NCBI RefSeq assembly: GCF_900231835.1
Contig: NZ_OCTN01000001.1
Location: 372,001 to 436,000, forward strand
Source: Pontivivens marinum
GTDB lineage: Bacteria; Pseudomonadota; Alphaproteobacteria; Rhodobacterales; Rhodobacteraceae
Direction of reading: 5' to 3'
DNA length: 64,000 bases
Part shown: positions 27,250 to 58,294 of the stretch, piece by piece
How the letters are laid out: each line of letters starts with the position of its first letter
How positions within the stretch are numbered: position 1 is the first letter of the stretch
Translations under genes and position numbers: made by a program
Notes under the pieces: model-generated
Seen by the model: only the letters and a program-made list of their open reading frames with translations
Databases searched by the model: none
What the model was told of the DNA's origin: nothing

Positions 27250-27453
27250 TTAAACGACCAGGTCGCCCGCGCTCTTGCGGCCATCACGACCGTCGATCAA
27301 TTCATACTCGATCGGTTGATTGTCCTGCAGAGACTGTAGTCCAGCTTGTTGAACAGCGGAGATGTGGACGAAAATGTCCTTTCCGCCGTCATCCGGTTGA
27401 ATGAATCCATAACCCTTTTCAGAGTTGAACCACTTGACGATACCTTTGGCCAT
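27250..27453 (-). CDS. Cold-shock family protein (CspA-type)
   Basis: A 67-residue single OB-fold nucleic-acid-binding protein. RNP1 is KGYGFIQP and RNP2 is DIFVHISAV; MAKGIVKWFNSEKGYGFI is the universal opening. Aromatic residues of the RNA-binding face are present. AAGGA lies before the ATG. The upstream region to 27700 (247 bases) is shared with the divergent TerC gene and contains no other gene; a long leader is usual for this family, but I cannot define its structure. Confidence 0.95.
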   Translation of the reverse strand: MAKGIVKWFNSEKGYGFIQPDDGGKDIFVHISAVQQAGLQSLQDNQPIEYELIDGRDGRKSAGDLVV

Positions 27454-27700
27454 TACTGACGGTCCTTAGAGTAGTGTGGTAGGGCAACGTGCCCTGCCTT
27501 CGCTTTCCCCTCAACCGCCCCGGCACGCCAATGACGCGCTGAATAGTCTTCAGGGTACTGGGAATGTAGCTGAAAACAGGCCTTCGTTCAACGCAAGCAT
27601 AATTTTTCCAAAGCAAAACTTTGACTACCCTGTGCTAAATTGTAGAACCCAACCCAATTGCAAAGCGAAGCCGGTGAGGCTTACGAAATAAGGTAGCGTC

Positions 27701-28525
27701 ATGGAATTGCTCACACTCGAAAACCTCGGCACCCTGGTGATGCTGATCTTCCTTCAGGCCGTATTGGGCTTTGATAACCTGCTCTATATCTCCATCGAAT
27801 CGCAGCGTGCGCCGATCGCGGATCAGGCCCGCGTGCGCCGCTGGGGTATTCTGATCGCCATTGCACTGCGCATCATCCTGCTCTTCGTGATGATCCAATT
27901 GCTGCAAACCCTGTCCCAAACATTGTTCAGCCTGAATTTTGAGGGGATCATCACCGGCGAGTTCACCTTTGCCACTCTGGTCTTCCTGTTTGGTGGCGGC
28001 TTCATCATGTACACAGCGGTCAAGGAAATCGCGCACCTGCTGGCGATGGACCACCTTGGCCACGGGGTGGAGAGCAAGCAGCGCCGCTCCGCGGCCTCTG
28101 TCATTGCGATGATCGTGTTCATGAACCTGATCTTCAGCTTTGATTCGATCCTGTCCGCCATTGCGATCACAACCGTCTTCCCGATCCTCGCCATTGCGAT
28201 CCTGCTCTCGGGTCTGGCCATGCTGCTGCTGGCCGACACCGTGTCCGAATTCATCGAGAAGAACCGCATGTACGAGGTTCTGGGCCTGATGGTCCTGCTG
28301 ATCGTCGGTGTGGTTCTGTTGGGTGAGGGCGGACATCAGGCGCATATGAAACTGTTCGGCTACGAGGTTCTGGCCATGTCCAAATCCACCTTCTACTTCT
28401 CGATCGTGGTGCTGTTCGTCGTACAGGTCCTGCAAACCGGCTATCGGCGCAAACTGGAGGCCGTACGTGCGCATCGCCGCACACAAACTTCGCCAGAACA
28501 TGTTAGTAATGGCCCTGCGCAGTAG
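27701..28525 (+). CDS. TerC family integral membrane protein, first gene of the XpaC-TelA cluster
   Basis: A 274-residue membrane protein with about seven to eight hydrophobic segments and the two TerC motifs LQAVLGFDNLLYISIESQ and NLIFSFDSILSAIAI, each with a buried Asp. It is clearly divergent from the TerC at 18713 (shorter His-poor loop, extended C-terminus). It is followed on the same strand by the 30-residue peptide gene 56 bases later and then by tightly spaced XpaC, TelA, SPFH and zinc-ribbon genes up to a terminator at 33077. In established work TerC links to TelA and XpaC families in metal- and envelope-stress systems; a role in that complex is inferred from position. Confidence 0.9.
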   Translation: MELLTLENLGTLVMLIFLQAVLGFDNLLYISIESQRAPIADQARVRRWGILIAIALRIILLFVMIQLLQTLSQTLFSLNFEGIITGEFTFATLVFLFGGGFIMYTAVKEIAHLLAMDHLGHGVESKQRRSAASVIAMIVFMNLIFSFDSILSAIAITTVFPILAIAILLSGLAMLLLADTVSEFIEKNRMYEVLGLMVLLIVGVVLLGEGGHQAHMKLFGYEVLAMSKSTFYFSIVVLFVVQVLQTGYRRKLEAVRAHRRTQTSPEHVSNGPAQ

Positions 28526-28581
28526 CGATCAGACCTCTGAGTGCCTATAATAATGCGAACGGATTAAATCAGGAGCATCAT

Positions 28582-28674
28582 ATGGGACGAGGCAACATTG
28601 GACGCGTGGCCACCGCAATACTGGTGGTCGTCGTCGCCGTCGTCGCGTTCAAGGCATTCGGAGGGCCAATCTGA
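28582..28674 (+). CDS. 30-residue single-span membrane peptide, translationally coupled to xpaC
   Basis: ATG at 28582 with AGGAG 6 bases upstream opens a 30-codon frame ending TGA at 28672-28674. The sequence is MGRGNIGRVATAILVV followed by VVAVVAFKAFGGPI: a short basic N-terminus, then about 17 strongly hydrophobic residues, then a basic/Gly-Pro tail. The stop TGA shares its last base with the ATG of the next gene, and a second ribosome-binding stretch (GGAGGG) sits inside the peptide's last codons, so translation should be coupled. It is not a member of a family known to me. The clean ribosome site and overlap argue that it is real. Confidence 0.75.
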   Translation: MGRGNIGRVATAILVVVVAVVAFKAFGGPI

Positions 28675-29615
28675 TGGCCCGTCGTTTTGGCGGGCAGTTC
28701 AGCAATGGCGGCGCGACCGACGCGCCCCAATCTCCGCAAAATCGGGCCTCACAAAATCAGGCCCCGCAAAAATCAGCATGGTCCGGCCGGACCGTGCAAC
28801 GCTGGACCGGACGCCTGACACTGGTTTCGGTCGCGGCATTCCCGATGTTGGCCGCAGGCTTGCTTGAGCTTGGCTCGGGCGATGCATTGCAAGCGGTGGG
28901 CGAACTGGCCGCCTTTGCCGCAATGGCTGGCGGCGTCTGGCTAACCCGTGAGGGGCTAAAGGCCGAGGACGCCTATGCCGCCCGCACCGTCGCCCATGCC
29001 CCCCGTGCCCCGCGCAAAATTGCAGGTGCTGTTGCCATGGGCATCGGCGTCGCATTGGGTGCGGCTGTGGGATGGGAACTCGGTGTAGTGCAGGGCGCCG
29101 TCTATGGCGTTGTCGCGGCCACCGCACATGTCGCCGCATTTGGTCTGGACCCGATGCGGGCCAAGGGCAGCTCGGACATTTCCGATTTCGACCGCGACCG
29201 CGTTGCCGGTGCCGTGGACAAGGCGGAAGCCCTGCTCGCCGACCTAATCGCACAGGCCAGCCGCATCCGTGACCGCAACGTCGCCGCGCGTGTCGACAGC
29301 TTTGCCGCCGCCGCCCGCGATATGTTCCGCCGGATTGAGGAAGACCCCCGTGATCTGGCCGGTGCCCGCCGCTACCTTGGAGTGTACCTGTCAGGCGCAC
29401 GGGATGCGACAGCGCAATTCGCAGACCTGTGGGCACGCGCCCCTGAAACAGCGGCGCGTCAGGATTACCTCGCCCTGCTTGATGATCTCGAGATGCGCTT
29501 TAACGCAAAAAGTGCCACCTTGATTGAAAATGACCGCTCTGCCCTCGACATCGAAATCGAGGTGCTGCGCGACCGACTGCAACAAGAGGGCGTCCGCCCT
29601 AGAAAGATGGAGTGA
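28674..29615 (+). CDS. XpaC-like membrane protein (5-bromo-4-chloroindolyl phosphate hydrolysis family)
   Basis: A 313-residue protein. Residues 1-40 are polar and Gln-rich (SQNQAPQKSAWSG); two hydrophobic pairs follow (LTLVSVAAFPMLAAGLLEL with AFAAMAGGVWLT, and IAGAVAMGIGVALGAAVGWELG with GAVYGVVAATAHVAAFGL). The cytoplasmic C-terminal half is helical (VDKAEALLADLIAQASRIRDRNVAARVDSFAAAARDMFRRIEEDPRDLAGARRYLGVYL), matching the XpaC domain. The name reflects a phenotype in Bacillus, not a known reaction. XpaC genes are commonly beside TelA, as here: telA starts 4 bases after this stop. Confidence 0.85.
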   Translation: MARRFGGQFSNGGATDAPQSPQNRASQNQAPQKSAWSGRTVQRWTGRLTLVSVAAFPMLAAGLLELGSGDALQAVGELAAFAAMAGGVWLTREGLKAEDAYAARTVAHAPRAPRKIAGAVAMGIGVALGAAVGWELGVVQGAVYGVVAATAHVAAFGLDPMRAKGSSDISDFDRDRVAGAVDKAEALLADLIAQASRIRDRNVAARVDSFAAAARDMFRRIEEDPRDLAGARRYLGVYLSGARDATAQFADLWARAPETAARQDYLALLDDLEMRFNAKSATLIENDRSALDIEIEVLRDRLQQEGVRPRKME

Positions 29616-29618
29616 ACC

Positions 29619-30797
29619 ATGCCTTCCGAGACCATCCGCACCAAAGCCGAGACCGCATTGCGCGAGGCAGAGATCGTCACCTCTACCCTGCTGCCCGAGC
29701 CCACGGACGCCAATCTGCCCGTCGTTGCCGGTTCCGTGCCACAGGATCAGATCGACACCCGCGTGGCGGAGCTGGACATGGAGGACACACAGTCCATCAT
29801 CCGCTTCGGTTCAGGCGCGCAATCCGAATTGCAGGTCATCTCGCAGCAAATGCTGGCAGGCGTGCGCAACAAGGATATCGGCCCCGCCGGCAATTCCCTG
29901 CGCGACATGGTATCCTCGCTGCGCGGGTTTTCCGCCGCAGAACTGGACCCGAACGCGGAGCGTAGCTGGTGGCAAAAACTGCTGGGCCGCGCCGCGCCAC
30001 TCGCCAACTTCACCGCGAAGTTCGAGGAAGTGCAGGGCCAGATCGACCGCATCACCGATGAGCTGCTGGAGCATGAGCATACCCTGCTCAAGGACATCAA
30101 ATCGCTCGACCTGCTCTATGAAAAGACCCTCGATTTCTATGACGAGCTTGCGCTGTACATCGCGGCTGGTGAGGCAAAGCTGGCCGATCTGGACGCCAAC
30201 GACATCCCCGCCAAGGTTGCCGCCGTTGAGGCAGCACCCGAGGATCAGGGCGTGATGAAGGCGCAGGAGCTGCGCGACCTACGCGCCGCCCGTGATGATC
30301 TGGAACGCCGCGTCCACGACCTGAAACTGACCCGTCAGGTGACGATGCAATCGCTGCCCTCGATCCGCCTGGTTCAGGAAAACGACAAGAGCTTGGTGAC
30401 AAAAATCAACTCAACCCTCGTGAACACCGTGCCCCTGTGGGAAAACCAGTTGGCACAGGGCATCGCCATCCATCGCAGCCGCGAGGCCGCAACCGTTGTG
30501 CGCGATGCAAACGATCTGACCAACGATCTGCTGCGCCAGAACGCCGAAAACCTGCAAACCGCCAACCGCGAAATCCGCACGGAAATGGAACGCGGCGTCT
30601 TCGACATCGACGCGGTCAAGGATGCAAACCAGCGCCTGATCGACACAATTCAGGAGAGCCTGCAAATCGCGGATGAGGGTAAGGCAAAACGCGCCGCCGC
30701 CGAGGTAGAGCTGCAATCCATGGAGCAAAAGCTCAAGGAAACGCTGGCCAGCGCCAAGGCAGCAAACGTAGCACAACCGGTTACCGATCAGGTTTAA
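29619..30797 (+). CDS. TelA/KlaA family toxic anion resistance protein
   Basis: A 392-residue, almost wholly helical cytoplasmic protein with no membrane segment. Family landmarks: QSIIRFGSGAQSELQVISQQMLAGVRNKDIGPAGNSLRDMVSSLRGF near the N-terminus, then KLLGRAAPLANFTAKFEEVQGQIDRITDELLEHEHTLLKDIKSLDLLYEKTLDFYDELALYIAAGE, and the C-terminal LTRQVTMQSLPSIRLVQENDKSLVTKINSTLVNTVPLWENQLA. These long heptad-bearing helices suggest coiled-coil assembly. TelA proteins are linked to tellurite and envelope-stress resistance, mechanism unsettled. GGAG before the ATG; a GC-rich hairpin follows the gene at 30810-30835. Confidence 0.92.
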   Translation: MPSETIRTKAETALREAEIVTSTLLPEPTDANLPVVAGSVPQDQIDTRVAELDMEDTQSIIRFGSGAQSELQVISQQMLAGVRNKDIGPAGNSLRDMVSSLRGFSAAELDPNAERSWWQKLLGRAAPLANFTAKFEEVQGQIDRITDELLEHEHTLLKDIKSLDLLYEKTLDFYDELALYIAAGEAKLADLDANDIPAKVAAVEAAPEDQGVMKAQELRDLRAARDDLERRVHDLKLTRQVTMQSLPSIRLVQENDKSLVTKINSTLVNTVPLWENQLAQGIAIHRSREAATVVRDANDLTNDLLRQNAENLQTANREIRTEMERGVFDIDAVKDANQRLIDTIQESLQIADEGKAKRAAAEVELQSMEQKLKETLASAKAANVAQPVTDQV

Positions 30798-30872: not shown

Positions 30873-31985
30873 ATGCCCATTTTCGACTTCCTGCGCGGCG
30901 AATTTATCGACGTCATTCACTGGACCGAGGATAACCGCGACAAAATGGTCCACCGCTTCGAGCGTGAAGGCCATGCCATCAAATACGGCGCGAAACTGAC
31001 CGTGCGTGAGGGGCAAGCCGCCGTTTTCGTGCACGAAGGCCAGATCGCAGACGTGTTCGCACCGGGCCTGTATATGCTCGAAACGAACAACATGCCGATC
31101 ATGACGACGTTGCAGCACTGGGACCACGCCTTCCAGTCGCCGTTCAAGTCCGAGATCTACTTCGTTTCCACCACACGGTTCACCGACCTGAAATGGGGTA
31201 CAAAAAACCCGATCATGTGTCGTGACCCCGAATTCGGCCCCGTTCGCCTGCGCGCATTCGGCACCTATACTGTCCGCATCACGGATCCTGCGAAATTCAT
31301 GCAGGAAATCGTGGGCACCGACGGTGAATTCACCACGGCTGAGATCACATATCAGTTGCGAAATATCATCGTGTCCCGCTTCTCGACCGCGATTGCGGGT
31401 TCGGGAATTCCCGTGCTGGATATGGCGGCGAATACCGATGATCTGGCGAAATTCGTGGCCGCGAAAATCGCGCCTGAAATCGCAGAATACGGCATCGAAT
31501 TGCCGATGCTGATGATCGAGAACATCTCGCTGCCCGCCGCAGTGGAGCAAGCAATGGACCGCCGCACCTCCATGGGCGTTGTCGGCGATCTGGGCCGCTA
31601 CACGCAGTTTCAGGCAGCCGAGGCAATGGCAGAGGCCGCGAAAAACCCCGGTGGCGGTATGGGCGCAGGGCTCGGCATGGGAATGGGCATGGCGATGGCG
31701 CAAAACGGCCCATGGGGCAGCGCACCAGCCGCAGCCGCTCCTGCCGCAGCCGCACCACCCCCACCACCACCGGTCGAGCACGTTTGGCACATCGCCGAAA
31801 ACGGCGCGACCCACGGCCCCTACTCCAAGGCACGCCTTGGCCGCATGGTACAGGAGGGCGGACTGACCCGCGACACCCTCGTCTGGACTGCTGGCGCTGC
31901 GGGCTGGACCAAGGCAGGCGACATTCAGGAGCTGGCGCAACTCTTTACCGTCATGCCACCGCCGCCCCCACCGCCGGGCGTTTAA
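30873..31985 (+). CDS. SPFH-domain protein (YdjI-like) with C-terminal GYF_2 domain and poly-Pro tracts
   Basis: A 370-residue cytoplasmic protein. Residues 1 to about 245 are an SPFH/virion-core-like domain: FLRGEFIDVIHWTEDNRDKMVHRF, LTVREGQAAVFVHEGQIADVFAPGLYML, and FGTYTVRITDPAKFMQEIVGTDGEFTTAEIT. A Gly/Met-rich linker (GGGMGAGLGMGMGMAMAQNG) and an Ala/Pro stretch ending in six prolines lead to a GYF_2 (DUF4339) domain, VWHIAENGATHGPYSKARLGRMVQEGGLTRDTLVW, and a terminal tract of seven prolines. In Bacillus the SPFH protein YdjI recruits the stress protein PspA to the membrane; here no PspA is present. Next gene starts 4 bases later. Confidence 0.88.
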   Translation: MPIFDFLRGEFIDVIHWTEDNRDKMVHRFEREGHAIKYGAKLTVREGQAAVFVHEGQIADVFAPGLYMLETNNMPIMTTLQHWDHAFQSPFKSEIYFVSTTRFTDLKWGTKNPIMCRDPEFGPVRLRAFGTYTVRITDPAKFMQEIVGTDGEFTTAEITYQLRNIIVSRFSTAIAGSGIPVLDMAANTDDLAKFVAAKIAPEIAEYGIELPMLMIENISLPAAVEQAMDRRTSMGVVGDLGRYTQFQAAEAMAEAAKNPGGGMGAGLGMGMGMAMAQNGPWGSAPAAAAPAAAAPPPPPPVEHVWHIAENGATHGPYSKARLGRMVQEGGLTRDTLVWTAGAAGWTKAGDIQELAQLFTVMPPPPPPPGV

Positions 31986-31988
31986 TCC

Positions 31989-33056
31989 ATGGGTGAGCTT
32001 GAGACCCACCGCTTCCCCTGCGGGACGTGCGGTTCCGACCTGCGTTTCGCACCGGGCGAGCGGTTATTGCGCTGCGATCATTGCGGCGCGACCGAGGGGA
32101 TGCCCGCCGCATCGCCATGGGATCGATCAGCCGTCGCGGAAAACGATATCCGCGGCGCGCTAGCCACCACGGCAGAGCCGGAGATGGAGGAAACCCGCGT
32201 TGTCCAGTGCACCTCCTGCGGCGCGCAGGTTGAGTTTGATCCGAATGAACACGCGGCGGAGTGCCCCTTCTGCGCCTCGCCCATGGTCACCGGAACCGGC
32301 ATAAACCGCCACATCAAACCACGCGGCATCCTGCCCTTTGATATCGATCAGGGTGGCGGGCAGAATGCGATGCAGAAATGGCTGCGCGGGCTATGGTTTG
32401 CCCCGAATGCGCTGAAAAAATATGCGCGCTCGGATCACAAATTACAGGGCATCTACCTGCCCTACTGGACCTTCGACGCGCAGACGGAAACCGATTATCG
32501 CGGTCAGCGCGGAACCAAGCACAAACGCACCGTTAGTGATGGGAAGAAGCAAACCACGATCCGCTGGCGACCGGTCAGCGGGCATGTCTCACACTTCTTT
32601 GACGATGTGCTGGTGACAGGCTCCCGTACCTTGCCCGAGAATCAGATCCGCAAAATCTCGCATTTCGATCTGTCCGCCCTGGAACCCTATCGCCCGCAAT
32701 TCCTCGCCGGTTTTAGGGCCGAGGCCTATTCCATCGATGTGGTTGAGGCGAAAACCCTCGCCGAGCAAATGATCGACGGTGAGGTCCAAACCCTTATCAA
32801 ACGCGATATCGGCGGTGACCGGCAGCGGATCGACGATATGCAGGTCACGCTATCGGATGTGACCTATAAGCATATCCTCGTGCCCGTCTGGATCGCCGCC
32901 TATCGGTTCCGCGGTAAAAGTTATCGTTTTGTCGTCAATGCACGTACCGGCGCCGTCACCGGTGAGCGTCCATGGTCGCCGGTCAAGATCGCTATCGCGG
33001 TTGTGCTGGGTGCCATTGCTGCCGGTATTGTCGCCTTTATCAGCGCCAACAGCTAA
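31989..33056 (+). CDS. Double zinc-ribbon membrane-anchored protein (YdjG/TFIIB-type zinc finger)
   Basis: A 355-residue protein with two N-terminal zinc ribbons: CGTCGSDLRF...RCDHCGATEG (about residues 10-36) and CTSCGAQVEF...CPFCASPMV (about 74-100). A central domain follows (KWLRGLWFAPNALKKYARSDHKLQGIYLPYWTFDAQTETDYRGQRGTKH, ALEPYRPQFLAGFRAEAYSIDVVEAKTLAE), and a C-terminal membrane segment (IAIAVVLGAIAAGIVAFISA) anchors it tail-first. It resembles Bacillus YdjG-type proteins found with SPFH proteins. Last gene of the cluster, 3 bases after the SPFH stop, and closed by a strong terminator. Confidence 0.85.
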   Translation: MGELETHRFPCGTCGSDLRFAPGERLLRCDHCGATEGMPAASPWDRSAVAENDIRGALATTAEPEMEETRVVQCTSCGAQVEFDPNEHAAECPFCASPMVTGTGINRHIKPRGILPFDIDQGGGQNAMQKWLRGLWFAPNALKKYARSDHKLQGIYLPYWTFDAQTETDYRGQRGTKHKRTVSDGKKQTTIRWRPVSGHVSHFFDDVLVTGSRTLPENQIRKISHFDLSALEPYRPQFLAGFRAEAYSIDVVEAKTLAEQMIDGEVQTLIKRDIGGDRQRIDDMQVTLSDVTYKHILVPVWIAAYRFRGKSYRFVVNARTGAVTGERPWSPVKIAIAVVLGAIAAGIVAFISANS

Positions 33057-33130: not shown

Positions 33131-36100
33131 TCAGGTGATGAAGAACAGTTCGTCAACCAGCGCCAGCTCAGCGTCCAGAACTTCCTGCGGGATATCGTCA
33201 CAATCGTCGATGGTTGGCGTATCGCCGTCCAGACCGACCACATCCAGCAGATCATCCAACAGACCGCCCAGACCACTTTCCGCACCAATTGCATAGGTGG
33301 AGATGGTGGCGTTGTAGTCATCGACCAATGCCTCAACCGCATCCTCGGCACCTGTGCTGGACGAACCACCACCGGTGAAGATGAACACGCGGTTATCCGC
33401 ATTTTCATCCATCTCGCTCTGCAACGATGTCAGTGCACCGCTGAGGTTCGAGGAGGAAGCAAGGCTGCCATCGATGTCATATGGGCTGCCGATCTCCGTC
33501 GCGGTGGAACCGTATGTGAAGTAGCTGCTCGATGTGCTGAGGTCGGAGAAGTTATCCCAAACCGTTGGCAGCACTTCACCCAACTGACCTGCCATCTCGA
33601 TCGAAAGGTCGATCCAGCTGGTGCTGCCGTCGCCGTTGAAATCGCAATCGAGCGACGCAACATTGACGAACATCGAGGCCGAAGCATCGATCAGGAAGTA
33701 GTAGTTCACATCTGCCGAAACGCCGGCATCCGAACCCTCACCATTCACAACGATCTCGATCGTAGCGGAATCACCCTCACCAGCCGCGTCAGATGCGGAG
33801 TAGTTGAAGGAGACGATCTCGCTCTGACCATCGTTCAGTGCAAGGAACTGATCGCTAGGATCGAAGGCAAACGTACCGTCTGCCTCAACCGTCAGCGTAC
33901 CGGTCCAGCCCTTGCCAGCCGAGGTCAGCTCAATCGCCGCACCCGGAACAAGCGTCTGACCCGCAACTGTTTCGATCGTGATCGTGTCACCGATGTCATT
34001 ATCGGTCACCAGAGCCGACAGATCGCCAGTGGCGACTTCCGTCTCAAGGATCTCGATGATCTGGCCAGTCGCAACCGGTGGCGTGTTTGGTGCTGCATCA
34101 TCAGCGCCAGTGATCGTAACCGTTACGGACTTCGTATCGGTCTGGACCACACCACCATCGCTGGATTCAACAGTGTACTGGAAGGTGAACGTATCGATAT
34201 CACCGGCATTCATGATCTCAGCGGCTTGTGCGCTAGGCTGATAGCGCATCGAACCATCAACGAAGACCGTCAACGTACCGGTCAGGCCGTTATCGGTGAT
34301 GATGTTGTTCGCAACAACATTACCGAAGCGACCGGAGGTCGAAAGGCTCATCCCGTCGCTGATACCAGCCAACGTAACCGCATCACCATCTGGATCGCTT
34401 GCGCCATCCATAATGTTGACGTTCAGCAGCTCGGTGTCCTCATCCGTGGTGTATGCCTGATCGATAGCAATCGGCGGAGAGTTGATGCCGTTGATATCAA
34501 TCGTTGCAGTCGCGGTGGAGGACTGAACCGTGGTTCCGCCAGTCGATTCTACGGTGAACTCGAAGGTGATGAAATCAGGCTGATCCTGATCCAGATCGGT
34601 CGAGGTGGACACATAGGTGAATGTGCCATCCGCGTTGATCGTCAGCAGGCCAGTGCCACCCTCGGTGGTTGTGACTGCAACAGCCTCACCGATTGCGCCC
34701 AACGATGTGGAGACCAGCGAAATCGCATCGCCATCCGCATCCGTGGAGTTTGCAAGCAGATCGCCCGAAACCGTGGAGATTTCGCCAATGTTGTTCTGCT
34801 CGAACACCACCACACCAACATCGCCAGCAATCGGCGCAACGTTCACGCCGTTGATGTTGATCGTTGCCTGCGAGGAGGAGAACTGCTGCGTCACACCGCC
34901 CGAGGAAACTGCGGTGAATTCAATCACCACCATGTCGCTCTCGTTCAGGTCCATGGAGCTGTCCAGAGCGGTCAATGTGAACGAACCGTCCGCACCAATC
35001 GTCAGTTCAGCGTCATGACCGCTGGTGGTTGTGACAATAACCGTCTCCCCCACGGCACCGACCGAGGTCGAGAACACAGTGATCGCATCGCCATCAGCAT
35101 CCGTAGCACCGTCCAGCAGGTTGCCAGTGACAACGTTGCTCAGGCCCTGATCGTTCGCCTCGGATATCTGGAAGGTCGAGTTGACCGTCACAGGCGCCAC
35201 GTTCACGCCGTTGATGTTGATCGTCGCCGTTGCCGTGTCGGATTGCGTAACCACGCCACCGGTGGATTCAACCGTGAAGTCGAAGGTGATGCTGTCTGCC
35301 TCACCCAGGTCCAGGCTGTCATCGGTGGATACGAACGAGAATGTACCATCGGTGTTGATCGTCAACTCACCGGTACGACCGCCATCGGTGGTGACGGAAA
35401 CCGTATCACCAATTGTGCCAACCGTGGTGGATGCCAGAACCAGCGTGTCACCGTCGATATCCGTTGCATCGAACAACAGGTTGCCAGCAGCGGTGCTGGT
35501 CAGACCCTGATCGTTCATCTCGTTCAGCGTGATGCTCTGCGAGATAGCAACCGGCGCATCGTTCAGGCCGTTGATGGTGATCGTCACCGTCTTTGTGTCG
35601 GTCTGAACCGTGGTGCCGCCCGACGATGCGATTGTGTAATCGAAGGTCAGGGTATCGGTTTCGGTCAGGTCCAGCGCATCGCTGGTCGATGTGAAGGTGA
35701 ACGTACCGTCATCATTGATCTGAAGAAGACCGCTTTGGCCGCCTTCAGTCGTGACCAGACGTGTACCGCCAATCGCACCCAGTGTGGTGGATTGCAGGGA
35801 CATCGCATCGCCATCCGCATCAACCGCACCGGCCAGCAGATCGCCGTCGATTGCGTTTGGTGTGGTTGGGGCGGTGGATGCCTCATCCATGCTCAGATCG
35901 ATGTTCTGCGCCGCAGGACCAACATTCACACCAGCGATGGTAACAGTCGCGGTCTGCGTGTCGAACTGATCCGTTACACCACCCGACGACACAACAGTGA
36001 AGTCGAAGGTGTAGCTGTCAGTCTCGCCCAGATCCATGCTGTCATCAGCCGAGGACAGTGTGAACGAACCATCAGCAGCCACTGTCAGCAGCGCCGCAAC

Positions 36101-39100
36101 GCCCGCTGCGGTGGTTACTGCCAGCGTCTCACCCAGTGCACCGGCGGAGATACCGGAGACTGTGATCGTGTCGCCATCCGCATCAGTCGCGCCGTTCAGC
36201 AGGTTGCCCGCTGCGGTGCTGTTCTGACCCTCAGCGTTCTGCTCGCTGATTGCGAAGCTCTGCGCCGTGGCAACAGGACCTTCGTTCAGGCCAGTGATGG
36301 TGATCGTCGCAGTGGACGATGCCGTCGCCTGACCGTCAGTGGCGGTATAGCCGAAGGTGATTGTGTCTGTCTGACCCATATCCAGATCAACACCATCCGG
36401 CGTGAAGGTGAACGAACCGTCTGCGTTAACGATCAGCGTACCGGTGTTGCCGCCATCGGTGGTGACGCTAACGCCCTCACCCAATGCGCCAGCGGTGATG
36501 CTCTCAACAGTGATGACATCGCCATCCGCGTCGGTCGCATCGTCCAGCAGGTTGCCGGAAACAGGTGTCGCCTCATCGGTCAGCGCGGCAACAACCTCAA
36601 CAACTGGTGCAACATTGTCTGTTACGCCGGTCACTGTGATGGTCAGCGTGCCGTCAGCCGAGGCCGTTTCACCAGCAGTCTCACCCGAGGTGCGGGTCAT
36701 CACGACGTTATCGATACGGCCGCCATAGCTGTCGCTGACTGGCAGACCCTCGAATGCGATGCGGTGATCGCCCTCAGTCAGGTCGAAATTGACCGTCAGG
36801 GACTTCTTCTCCAGATCGTCGGAGTTCAGCGTTGCAACAACAACCCCGTCAACCAGAACCGAAACACCCGAAGTGTCGTCGATTTCGCCGTTCAGGGCGC
36901 GTGCATAGAAGTCGAGGCTCAGCTCGAAGGAACCGTCGGAACCAGCGTAGACATCCTGATACAGCGTGCTGTTAAAGCGCGCGTCCAGCTCAGCCACGGT
37001 GTTGTTGGTGTCGATGTTTTCCGAACCGCCAACGTTACCGCTTTGCAGTTCGATATCGCCTTCCAGAACCGACCAGCCCTCAACCAGATCCTGATCGAGA
37101 TAGTTCCACTGACCGTCTGTGCCGCTGGTGTTGAACAGCAGCTCGGAACCGCCACCCTCGAAGTCGCCGTTGACGATCAGGCGATCATCAGGAGTCGCAA
37201 CAGTCGTGGTCGCAGTTGCAGTGTAGTTCAGGCTGATTGTGTCAACGTCGCCGTCGTTCAGCTCCTCGAAGCCTTCGTTAGGCTCGAAGGTGTAGGAACC
37301 GTCTGCGTTCACTGTCAGCAGACCGGTCAGACCACCCTCGGAGGTCACTTCAAAGCTCTCGCCAACAACGCCGCCCTCGATCGCGGAAACGGCCAGCGTC
37401 CCCTCGGTCGTTGCGTCGTTCTCCAGGATGTTGCCCGAAACAGCGGTATCTTCGTCAGTGGTGTTTGTGTCGTTCTCGACCGAGATAACCGGCCCGTCCG
37501 ACGCGCCGTCGATGGTCACAGTGACCGTCGCGGTGTCGTAAACATAGGCAGGGACTTCCTCAGTCGAACCCAGCACCAGATCGTCGATGCCGCCGGACCC
37601 CTTGAGCACAACAACCATGTACGAAACGTCTACACCGTTCAGCGCAACTTCGTTGATGGAGTTGTTGGAGCCGCCGCTGACCCACTGCTCGCCAGTCTTG
37701 CACCAGTTCTCATCAAAGAAACCGATCCAGACACCTTCTTCGTTGTCTACGATGGTCAGCGAGCTGACATCAGTAGGCTCATCGAAGGAGAAGCGGATTT
37801 CGCCGCCAGCAGCGTTATCATCAGGATCCCACTCGTGGCCGTCCTCGGAGATGATCAGCAGGTTGCCCTGCGTATCAGTCGCCAGATCCCAGTCGCCGCC
37901 GGTCGGGTTGTTGGAGTCGAAGATCATCGCCTCGTCAATGCACTTGTTATAGGCATGAACGTTGATGGTAACACCGTCGATCTGGTTGGTGATCGTCTCA
38001 CCGGTGTTGAACTCTTCGAAGTCGATTGTGCGTGTGCTGTCGATGGTTGTGAAACCATCCTGCGACTTAACAGTGAAGTCGAAGCTGAACGTGTCCGTCT
38101 CACCCTCGGCCATGTCGTTCGCATCAGCACCCGGAGTATAGGTGTATGTGCCGTCTGCGTTCACAACAACCGTACCGGTATAGCCGTTCGCAGTGGTAAC
38201 CTCGATTGCCTCACCGATCGCGCCCAGCGATGTGCCGTCCAACGTGACAACGTCGCCGTCTACGTCGAATGCGCCGTCCATAACGTTGCCAGTAACGGCC
38301 TCGTCCTCGGAGGTGCGAACCGCCTGATCAACAGCAACAGGCGCATCGTTTACGCCGGTAACTTCGATGGTCAGTGTCGCGGTATCTGTCAGGCCGTCGG
38401 AATTCAGAACCGTGTAGTCGAGGGAGACAGTTGCCGTCTCGCCTGCACCCAGTGCATCGAAGTCGCCAGCAGCATCGAAATCAACGGAACCGTCAGCAGC
38501 AACCAGAACGCGGCCGCCATCTTCCAGATCGATCCAAACGCCGACCAGCGATGCGGAGCCGTCGATTTCCTTGACGACCAGCGCCTCGGATGTGTTGGAC
38601 GCATCGTTCAGCAGAACGTTGATGTCGTTATCGCCAAAGCCTTCGCCCTGCATAACAGCAAGGAAGTCGTCATCCGCATCAGGCGCCGAAGCATGCGAAC
38701 CGATCTCACCGCCGTCTAGGCAGGCATAGCTCAGCGAGCCACAATCGCCGTAGTAGCATGCAGCGGTCAGCTCAACGCCCTGCGCAGGAACTGCACCGTA
38801 GAACGCGAAGTGATCGTTGCCGCCGTCAGGCAGGTTCGTGCCCTCGATCTCGATCATGTAGTAGGTGTTGCCATCATCGCCGTGCACGACGAAGTAGCCT
38901 TCCCAGTAGACGTTACCGGCATCGGTCCAGTTTCCGTCCTCGTTCAGCCAACCGGACTGATTGTCCGAACCCTGCTCGTTCGCATTACGACCACTGTCGC
39001 CAGCCAGACCGGAATCATTGTCGCTGACATACATCGTCGCATCAGCACCCGAATAGGTGAAGCTGTCGCCGGTGCTGAAGTTGCTGTCAGTACGGATCGA

Positions 39101-39154
39101 GTTCTCATCGATAACCGTGAAACTGTTCCAGGAATAATTGCTACTGCGGCCCAT
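33131..39154 (-). CDS. Giant secreted repeat protein with cadherin-like/VCBS repeats and C-terminal vWA domain
   Basis: A 2007-residue acidic protein without an N-terminal signal peptide, consistent with type I secretion. Order: an N-terminal module (about 1-150, ending FAFYGAVPAQGVEL) resembling those before Hint domains in rhodobacterial secreted proteins; about eleven Ig-like repeats of roughly 115-120 residues with DADGD and NADGTFTF-type motifs; two non-repeat modules inserted among them (about 395-550, with three cysteines; and about 655-830, LIVNGDFEGGG...GRIDNVVMTR, a carbohydrate-binding-like jelly-roll); then a vWA domain from about 1815 with a MIDAS DASAS. I see no RTX nonapeptides. 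The start at 39154 has AGAGGA upstream. No type I secretion genes are in the window. Likely surface adhesin or matrix protein. Confidence 0.88.
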   Translation of the reverse strand: MGRSSNYSWNSFTVIDENSIRTDSNFSTGDSFTYSGADATMYVSDNDSGLAGDSGRNANEQGSDNQSGWLNEDGNWTDAGNVYWEGYFVVHGDDGNTYYMIEIEGTNLPDGGNDHFAFYGAVPAQGVELTAACYYGDCGSLSYACLDGGEIGSHASAPDADDDFLAVMQGEGFGDNDINVLLNDASNTSEALVVKEIDGSASLVGVWIDLEDGGRVLVAADGSVDFDAAGDFDALGAGETATVSLDYTVLNSDGLTDTATLTIEVTGVNDAPVAVDQAVRTSEDEAVTGNVMDGAFDVDGDVVTLDGTSLGAIGEAIEVTTANGYTGTVVVNADGTYTYTPGADANDMAEGETDTFSFDFTVKSQDGFTTIDSTRTIDFEEFNTGETITNQIDGVTINVHAYNKCIDEAMIFDSNNPTGGDWDLATDTQGNLLIISEDGHEWDPDDNAAGGEIRFSFDEPTDVSSLTIVDNEEGVWIGFFDENWCKTGEQWVSGGSNNSINEVALNGVDVSYMVVVLKGSGGIDDLVLGSTEEVPAYVYDTATVTVTIDGASDGPVISVENDTNTTDEDTAVSGNILENDATTEGTLAVSAIEGGVVGESFEVTSEGGLTGLLTVNADGSYTFEPNEGFEELNDGDVDTISLNYTATATTTVATPDDRLIVNGDFEGGGSELLFNTSGTDGQWNYLDQDLVEGWSVLEGDIELQSGNVGGSENIDTNNTVAELDARFNSTLYQDVYAGSDGSFELSLDFYARALNGEIDDTSGVSVLVDGVVVATLNSDDLEKKSLTVNFDLTEGDHRIAFEGLPVSDSYGGRIDNVVMTRTSGETAGETASADGTLTITVTGVTDNVAPVVEVVAALTDEATPVSGNLLDDATDADGDVITVESITAGALGEGVSVTTDGGNTGTLIVNADGSFTFTPDGVDLDMGQTDTITFGYTATDGQATASSTATITITGLNEGPVATAQSFAISEQNAEGQNSTAAGNLLNGATDADGDTITVSGISAGALGETLAVTTAAGVAALLTVAADGSFTLSSADDSMDLGETDSYTFDFTVVSSGGVTDQFDTQTATVTIAGVNVGPAAQNIDLSMDEASTAPTTPNAIDGDLLAGAVDADGDAMSLQSTTLGAIGGTRLVTTEGGQSGLLQINDDGTFTFTSTSDALDLTETDTLTFDYTIASSGGTTVQTDTKTVTITINGLNDAPVAISQSITLNEMNDQGLTSTAAGNLLFDATDIDGDTLVLASTTVGTIGDTVSVTTDGGRTGELTINTDGTFSFVSTDDSLDLGEADSITFDFTVESTGGVVTQSDTATATININGVNVAPVTVNSTFQISEANDQGLSNVVTGNLLDGATDADGDAITVFSTSVGAVGETVIVTTTSGHDAELTIGADGSFTLTALDSSMDLNESDMVVIEFTAVSSGGVTQQFSSSQATININGVNVAPIAGDVGVVVFEQNNIGEISTVSGDLLANSTDADGDAISLVSTSLGAIGEAVAVTTTEGGTGLLTINADGTFTYVSTSTDLDQDQPDFITFEFTVESTGGTTVQSSTATATIDINGINSPPIAIDQAYTTDEDTELLNVNIMDGASDPDGDAVTLAGISDGMSLSTSGRFGNVVANNIITDNGLTGTLTVFVDGSMRYQPSAQAAEIMNAGDIDTFTFQYTVESSDGGVVQTDTKSVTVTITGADDAAPNTPPVATGQIIEILETEVATGDLSALVTDNDIGDTITIETVAGQTLVPGAAIELTSAGKGWTGTLTVEADGTFAFDPSDQFLALNDGQSEIVSFNYSASDAAGEGDSATIEIVVNGEGSDAGVSADVNYYFLIDASASMFVNVASLDCDFNGDGSTSWIDLSIEMAGQLGEVLPTVWDNFSDLSTSSSYFTYGSTATEIGSPYDIDGSLASSSNLSGALTSLQSEMDENADNRVFIFTGGGSSSTGAEDAVEALVDDYNATISTYAIGAESGLGGLLDDLLDVVGLDGDTPTIDDCDDIPQEVLDAELALVDELFFIT
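34060..36620 (-). repeat. Tandem ~360-bp repeat units inside the adhesin gene
   Basis: Unit boundaries (the [AGP]PV/I linker after TI-x-G-x-N) recur near 36600, 36270, 35920, 35560, 35205, 34840, 34475 and 34060, a spacing of about 330-415 and mostly 360 bases. Units are diverged at the DNA level but retain DATDADGD, SVTTDGG and NADGTF-type cores. The region is prone to recombination and assembly collapse. Confidence 0.8.
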
Positions 39155-39199
39155 ACATTCGATCCTCTTTTGCAGCACTTGCTGCGTGTCCCTTGAAGC

Positions 39200-57067: not shown

Positions 57068-58294
57068 CTATAACGGACGCCCCCGCATCAGGCGTGGCAA
57101 ATCACCGCCCAGCCCGGCTGCCTCACGCATAAAGGTCCGCCGAACCGGCCCTGCCGCATTCACCGCACCCAGCCCCAGATCGCGCAATCCACGCAATAGC
57201 GGGTTGTCGTTCGAGAATAGGCGGTTCAACCCATCCGTGGCCAGCGCCAGCCCCGCCGTGTCAAACCGCCGCCATTGGGCATAGCGTTGCAGAACCGGCC
57301 CACGGGTCCAATCCTCGCCCCGCCGCTTTGAGTCGGCCAGAACTTCGGCCAGCGCGGCAACATCGCGTAGGCCGAGATTCAGCCCCTGCCCCGCCAGCGG
57401 GTGAATGCCATGTGCGGCGTCCCCGACCAGCACCACGCGCCGCGCGGTCCAATGCTCGGCCAAGCTTAGCCCCAGCGGATAGGCATAACGCGCACCGGTC
57501 AGACGAATCTCTCCTAGAAAATCGCCAAAACGGGGGGCAAGGGCGGCAAGGTATTCCGCGTCACCCATGGCCTGAATCGCCTCGGCGCGATCGCGGCTTT
57601 CGGTCCAGACGATGGACACGCGATTGCCCCGCAGCGGCAAAATCGCCAGCGGCCCCTCGGCAAAGAACATTTGATGCGCGATGCCGTCATGGGGCAAATC
57701 ATGCTCTAGCGCGCAAACCAGACTGGTTTGTCCGTAATCGGTTTCCATCCGGCGAATGCCTGCACGCTGCGCGGTGCCAGAGCGCCGCCCATCGCAGCCG
57801 ACGATCAGCTTGCAGCGCAGTTCCTCACCATCCTGCAAGGTCAGAACAGCACCCTGCGCCCCGGTTTCCTGCGCAACCACGCGAGCCGGTGCGCGCATCG
57901 TGATCCTGGGATTATCGGCAACCGCCGCGATTAAGGCCGCGCGCAGGTGGCGATCCTCAATCATCGCGCCAAAGGGGCCTTCCTCCATCTCACGGTGATC
58001 GAAATGCACATGGTGGGGGCTGGCGCCCAAACCGGCGCGCCCATCGGCAACCACGATATCGTTGATCGGCTGGGCATCCGCCGCCAAGCCGTCCCACAGC
58101 TCTACCGCACGCAACAGGTTTTGCGAGCCCAGCGCGATGGCGTAGGAGCGTCCGTCGAAATCCGGCTGTGCCTGTGCCTCAACCGGCAGCGCGTCCAGAA
58201 TCGTGACGCTAAATCCAGCGGAGGCCAGTGCGAGGCCAAGGATCGGGCCGTTCAGGCCGCCCCCGACGATGGCGATATCGGTGTGATTTTCCAT
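57068..58294 (-). CDS. UbiH/Coq6 family FAD-dependent hydroxylase (ubiquinone synthesis)
   Basis: A 408-residue flavin monooxygenase. ENHTDIAIVGGGLNGPILGLALASAGFSVTILDA is the FAD-binding start, VGCDGRRSGTAQRAGI the DG motif and VVLVGDAAHGIHPLAGQGLNLGLRDVAALAEVL the GD motif with the ubiquinone-hydroxylase consensus HPxAGQGxNLG. It likely adds a ring hydroxyl during ubiquinone synthesis; which position cannot be told. The 5' end is divergent from the amidase, 87 bases apart. The start at 58294 gives the canonical N-terminus; the longer frame adds an implausible tail. Confidence 0.9.
   Translation of the reverse strand: MENHTDIAIVGGGLNGPILGLALASAGFSVTILDALPVEAQAQPDFDGRSYAIALGSQNLLRAVELWDGLAADAQPINDIVVADGRAGLGASPHHVHFDHREMEEGPFGAMIEDRHLRAALIAAVADNPRITMRAPARVVAQETGAQGAVLTLQDGEELRCKLIVGCDGRRSGTAQRAGIRRMETDYGQTSLVCALEHDLPHDGIAHQMFFAEGPLAILPLRGNRVSIVWTESRDRAEAIQAMGDAEYLAALAPRFGDFLGEIRLTGARYAYPLGLSLAEHWTARRVVLVGDAAHGIHPLAGQGLNLGLRDVAALAEVLADSKRRGEDWTRGPVLQRYAQWRRFDTAGLALATDGLNRLFSNDNPLLRGLRDLGLGAVNAAGPVRRTFMREAAGLGGDLPRLMRGRPL

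Follow-up and report, generated by a model that had tools for sequence, protein, structure and literature searches.

A putative microgene for a membrane protein of 30 residues was found directly in front of the XpaC gene of Pontivivens marinum, and a frame of the same kind stood at the XpaC start in nearly all of the loci examined in its family. The frame is conserved, is under selection as a protein and is tied to XpaC. We put at roughly 60% the reading in which the microgene is real and its product is an accessory subunit of XpaC, similar in kind to KdpF and CydX, in an XpaC-TelA membrane-stress module.

The microgene and its surroundings

The window, i.e. the whole stretch of 64,000 nucleotides analysed, carries the features collected in Table 1. 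In the window frame list, the microprotein was translated as MGRGNIGRVATAILVVVVAVVAFKAFGGPI with the stop TGA at nt 28672-28674, the A of which was shared with the XpaC ATG (TGATG, a one-base overlap). The elements described in the first-pass annotation, namely AGGAG, the ATG, a basic N-terminal segment, a single membrane helix and the base shared by stop and ATG, were all confirmed in the sequence, and the likely next ribosome site was indeed located inside the peptide codons, as GGAGGG in those for Gly-Gly.

Table 1. Features of the microgene region in the window
Feature	Position	Strand	Basis
TerC-family membrane protein, optional neighbour	27701..28525	+	Pfam PF03741, E 9.5e-36
TATAAT, possible -10 of a promoter for the peptide-XpaC-TelA unit, weak	28546..28551	+	sequence; putative
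AGGAG, ribosome site of the microprotein	28571..28575	+	sequence; six bases 5' of the ATG at 28582
Membrane microprotein, 30 aa, single helix	28582..28674	+	window sequence; like frame in 142/143 loci
GGAGGG, likely XpaC ribosome site within the microprotein Gly-Gly codons	28660..28665	+	sequence
XpaC (PF10112), predicted membrane protein with long helical domain	28674..29615	+	Pfam, E 3.9e-23
TelA (PF05816)	29619..30797	+	Pfam, E 8.9e-106

With a membrane-grade stretch defined as 15 residues of mean hydropathy at least 1.9, the microprotein was the sole frame of 20-70 aa in the 64 kb to combine a ribosome-site motif with such a stretch. Hydrophobic microframes were present at the start of two of the 64 window frames of at least 200 aa (both strands, spurious frames included), the second being at 57947.

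A two-hexamer scan predicted no promoter at the TATAAT of Table 1. Upstream of the microgene, a block, TTCCCCCTAGC, was observed in 22 of 119 family loci, frequently at a distance of about 65 bases from the start of the microgene, and TTCCCCC in 36 of the 119; in several loci the block was followed by a -10-like CCTAGATT. This block may represent a shared promoter or operator; its counterpart in the window, about nt 28510-28560, held TATAAT alone. Directly 3' of TelA and on the same strand, nt 30873-33056 encoded an SPFH/Band 7 and GYF protein followed by a protein with a weak zinc-ribbon match (Pfam), both possibly part of the XpaC-TelA module. On the minus strand, convergent with the operon, nt 33131-39178 contained a 2015-residue frame of repeated units, which we take to be adhesin-like. 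A role in a defence system was rejected, since none of six proteins encoded in the region matched in PADLOC.

Conservation and selection within the family

Searches with XpaC yielded 122 loci, in batches of 30, 2, 30, and 60, the batch of two being all that a contig scan with a single protein query gave. One locus beginning inside XpaC (L041) and two that were the same as others (L035 as L024, L031 as L002) were dropped, leaving 119, in seven of which the automatic rule failed and the XpaC start was placed manually. The nearest named relative was Pontibrevibacter nitratireducens (L031), with an XpaC 77% identical. All 119 loci possessed a membrane-grade frame whose end fell between -5 and +8 relative to the start of XpaC; the one-base overlap was seen in 66, and 110 had a start codon giving a product of 26-34 aa (96 ATG, 8 GTG, and 6 TTG). 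Sequences similar to a Shine-Dalgarno (SD) 4-mer were located 5' of the microgene start in 96 of these 110, a raw count with no chance control.

PF10112 was present in 345 of 394 family genomes in the Pfam ranking, and since most of the 119 loci came from its top, 27 genomes with 29 places were sampled from the weak end with the intention of breaking the observation. Five places were set aside, namely L176, L198, L200, and L204, none of which scored above 54 bits with the window XpaC, and L202, with no match; the 24 retained scored 150-239 bits, the split being drawn post hoc at a clear gap in score. The microframe was found in 23 of the 24, 17 by the automatic rule and six by eye (L177, L180, L182, L183, L196, and L201; hydropathy 2.29-3.19), and none was found by eye in L192, which had a good XpaC (206 bits). 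Altogether, 142 of the 143 loci examined carried a membrane microframe at the start of XpaC; these loci share history and are not independent counts, with about 200 further XpaC genomes lying outside the sample.

The microproteins shared a consensus of approximately M-S/T-x-x-G-L-Q-K-[LIV]-A-[FY]-x-x-L-L-x-A-L-x-x-[GY]-V-[AST]-x-G-(W-L)-G-G-[LVA], in which a single Leu column was conserved in 117 of the 119 loci. With 30 aa in the window and a hydropathy of at least 1.9 at every one of the 119 loci, they belong with proteins shorter than about 50 residues having one membrane helix. Basic residues mark the cytosolic side according to the positive-inside rule, and 105 of the 119 microproteins had K or R among their first 11 residues, compared with one that had either among its last six, a pattern that points to an N-in topology.

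Other forms were also observed. In 18 of the 119 loci, the open frame extended to 64-106 aa with an extra helix in front, the usual helix being kept as the second, and L012 and L014, among others, had no internal start that would yield the 26-34 aa form; a two-helix frame of 68 aa was likewise found in Pseudorhodobacter turbinis (L207). In L026, L033, and L203, a Cys at the helix end, in what is presumably a lipobox-like motif, gave a lipoprotein-like microprotein in place of the usual form. The microprotein of the window contains no Cys and hence does not qualify as a bacterial lipoprotein.

Selection was assessed on pairs that were picked by XpaC identity and whose microgenes had the same length, the start and the last five codons being excluded; the pairs share history and are not independent. 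Among 289 pairs (XpaC identity 0.62-0.95), pN/pS was 0.39 in the microprotein frame, and the two shifted frames gave 1.10 and 2.19, with 2221, 1093, and 3521 substitutions at codon positions 1, 2, and 3, respectively; the first 180 codons of XpaC in these pairs gave 0.389, matching the microprotein. In 585 more distant pairs (XpaC identity 0.55-0.62), the values were 0.465 in frame, 1.03 and 1.88 in the shifted frames, and 0.456 for XpaC. Purifying selection therefore acts, among the three frames, on that of the microprotein only. The short coding frame claimed at first pass has thus held up both in related genomes and at the codon level.

Partner genes, the overlap with XpaC and alternative readings

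A structural subunit of a TerC-XpaC complex had been suggested in the first-pass annotation. By tblastn, 40 of the 119 loci and 41 of the 143 overall had TerC upstream of the microgene, 56 of the 143 had a gene like that upstream in L014, which we take to resemble a pseudouridine synthase, and 48 had neither. Because the peptide is present with or without TerC, a TerC-linked subunit is unsupported and was rejected, whereas the part of the suggestion that concerned XpaC was retained in view of the conservation of the protein and its tie to XpaC.

This tie was followed with a profile (A2) built from 45 relatives and run on 36 genomes. Matches lay beside XpaC in eight of nine genomes known to carry the microframe, G004 being missed despite having one; four of these eight genomes were outside A2 (G006, 4.7e-10; G016, 1.1e-8; G009, 1.3e-4; G002, 1.4e-4). 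Twenty of the 49 family genomes without XpaC were profiled; nine gave E ≤1 and only two, G146 and G184, gave E <0.01. In G146 (E 2.9e-14), the contig ends inside XpaC immediately behind the microgene. In G184 (L206, E 0.0027), a microprotein-like frame had no XpaC behind it and is perhaps a remnant of a lost operon. Present at 142 of 143 XpaC loci and, among the 20 XpaC-less genomes profiled, in these two cases only, the microprotein goes with a single large membrane partner and is confined to it. L192 (XpaC and no microprotein) and G184 (the converse) indicate that neither strictly requires the other.

Outside the family, most PF10112 loci examined had no like frame. In other Alphaproteobacteria, one-helix frames of unrelated appearance were seen by eye at or just before the XpaC start in L123 (G451), L127 (G525), and L138 (G430), and weaker candidates lay farther away in L133 and L135. 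Since A2 found no match in G451, G525, and G430, these frames are positional analogues at best, and homology outside the family was rejected. No like frame was seen by eye in L124, L140, and four loci of another alphaproteobacterial family (f160; L165, L172, L173, and L175); in these four, a short PF10112 protein was encoded directly 3' of another frame, presumably one resembling a von Willebrand A protein.

The AlphaFold model of XpaC (mean pLDDT 85.3) had helices at residues 44-54, 56-68, 71-103, 114-133, and 138-156, followed by residues 171-304 as four helices; helices 44-68 (broken at 55), 71-103, 114-133, and 138-156 are predicted from this model to form the membrane part. No solved relative of XpaC was detected by sequence, and a fold search gave none at E ≤0.001, the best being designed helical repeats.

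Among the 83 loci of more than 2,800 bases, tblastn found TelA in 82, the exception being L027. This near constancy would also suit a microprotein that works on another partner, such as TelA, the translocon or a sensor of membrane stress, and shares with XpaC its regulation only, for coupling alone could produce the co-occurrence with XpaC and binding would be unnecessary. We regard such a partner as unlikely, since TerC is excluded as a common partner by its low frequency and the presence of the microprotein tracks the XpaC subtype, no like frame being seen by eye in the four divergent PF10112 proteins set aside above.

The 3'-end of the microgene appears to serve XpaC as well. Of the 224 Gly codons in the last five residues, 151 ended in a purine, a larger share than among the other Gly codons of the peptide (97 of 255, Fisher p 1e-10) or those of XpaC (886 of 2923, p 9e-28; kinship uncorrected in both). 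SD-like 4-mers preceded XpaC in 109 of 119 loci, whereas shuffling produced them in 1222 of 5950 cases and an internal control place had them in 3 of 119. The codon bias and the SD-like excess together indicate that the Gly-Gly end is at least partly the ribosome site of XpaC showing through, and this site accounts for the Gly-Gly conservation in part or in full. Coupling through overlap is common in operons, and, because the XpaC ribosome site is written in the Gly codons of the peptide, the translation of XpaC is likely coupled to that of the microprotein; such coupling does not exclude a working protein.

The same arrangement is what the other suggestion of the first-pass annotation would draw on, a leader whose translation sets XpaC expression while the peptide itself is idle: the one-base overlap is frequent, all stops lie close to the XpaC start, the XpaC ribosome site falls in the last microgene codons, and this site had a slightly lower accessibility than its shuffled counterpart (0.303 versus 0.38, one shuffle per locus). 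As an account of the microprotein, it is nevertheless improbable in our judgement. Conserved RNA structure was not found in the 119 loci (mean folding z -0.09 around the XpaC start; 0.04 for the microgene as a whole), which makes an RNA-type leader unlikely; an attenuator or sequestering hairpin was thereby rejected as a family trait. Moreover, the selection at the protein level, seen even without the start and the last five codons, and the nearly invariant Leu column are left unexplained by an idle peptide, and the two-helix versions are hard to account for. In the window, one terminator-like hairpin spanned the XpaC start (nt 28663-28680), with 0.3 expected by chance. A riboswitch was rejected, no Rfam family scoring above cut-off in nt 27400-28760. 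Lastly, a chance frame without function is scarcely credible, for although short hydrophobic frames satisfying the same test arose in 34 of 2380 dinucleotide-shuffled gaps from the 119 loci, neither presence at all loci but one nor selection confined to a single frame would be expected of it.

Comparison with known systems and proposed role

The window microprotein matched no Pfam or NCBIfam family above curated cut-off, and the 45 relatives gave weak and scattered matches only, the best being PetL, matched by four of them in Pfam (best 0.0054) and by six in NCBIfam (best 0.015). None of the open-literature matches listed described it in title or abstract, and the available portion of a small-membrane-protein survey named neither XpaC nor TerC; small-protein catalogues may hold it unnamed.

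Two known proteins offer parallels. KdpF, of the KdpFABC potassium pump, is a membrane peptide of about 30 residues whose gene comes first in an operon that otherwise encodes larger membrane proteins; it is reported to be stabilising in vitro and not essential for its transporter (PMC3618439). The microprotein resembles it in size, membrane character and leading position in the operon, but the partner of KdpF is a P-type ATPase as opposed to the proposed XpaC-TelA, and the microprotein lacks a match in either family database. The presence of CydX, of cytochrome bd oxidase, tracks the long Q-loop subtype of CydA (PMC4325964), so that both are small membrane proteins following one subtype of a large partner; unlike CydX, the microprotein is encoded by a gene preceding that of its proposed partner, and no CydX match was obtained in Pfam or NCBIfam.

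As in the window, genes for XpaC-like and TelA-like proteins are adjacent in Listeria, where disruption of the TelA-like gene increased sensitivity to nisin and tellurite (PMC12791056), and xpaC is raised in envelope-stress regulons of Firmicutes (PMC10269926, PMC7864038). The portions of these three papers that were available mention no microprotein for the XpaC-TelA genes. In a related organism, Rhodobacter sphaeroides, a gene of the same name, telA, is a named tellurite-resistance locus (PMC6955997). Since the TelA-like and xpaC genes of Firmicutes are tied in these sources to nisin, tellurite and envelope stress, analogy suggests a role in membrane stress for the XpaC-TelA module here.

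Our preferred reading, the accessory subunit, can be outlined as follows. The microgene would encode a single-pass inner-membrane protein at the head of an xpaC-telA unit, with a cytosolic N-terminus and a C-terminal end that reaches only very briefly into the periplasm. Ribosomes ending the microgene would reinitiate at the overlapping XpaC start, with the result that both proteins would be made together. The helix of the microprotein may then pack on the predicted membrane helices of XpaC and aid its folding, assembly or work in the XpaC-TelA membrane-stress module. Its one helix, apparent co-production with XpaC, conservation as a protein and tracking of the XpaC subtype make the microprotein best read as an accessory subunit.

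In a broader formulation, for which we see the balance as about even, the microprotein is an unrecognised third component of the XpaC-TelA module, near-universal in those family members that have this type of XpaC, which shifts in form (one-helix, two-helix or lipoprotein-like) and whose last codons double as the XpaC ribosome site. XpaC and TelA have been linked to the survival of tellurite and of attack on the cell envelope, and for XpaC no solved relative was found. A partner of 27-31 residues in almost every XpaC locus examined in this family provides a simple experimental handle, and a component may have been omitted or disturbed in the xpaC or telA mutants and constructs already made in such bacteria.
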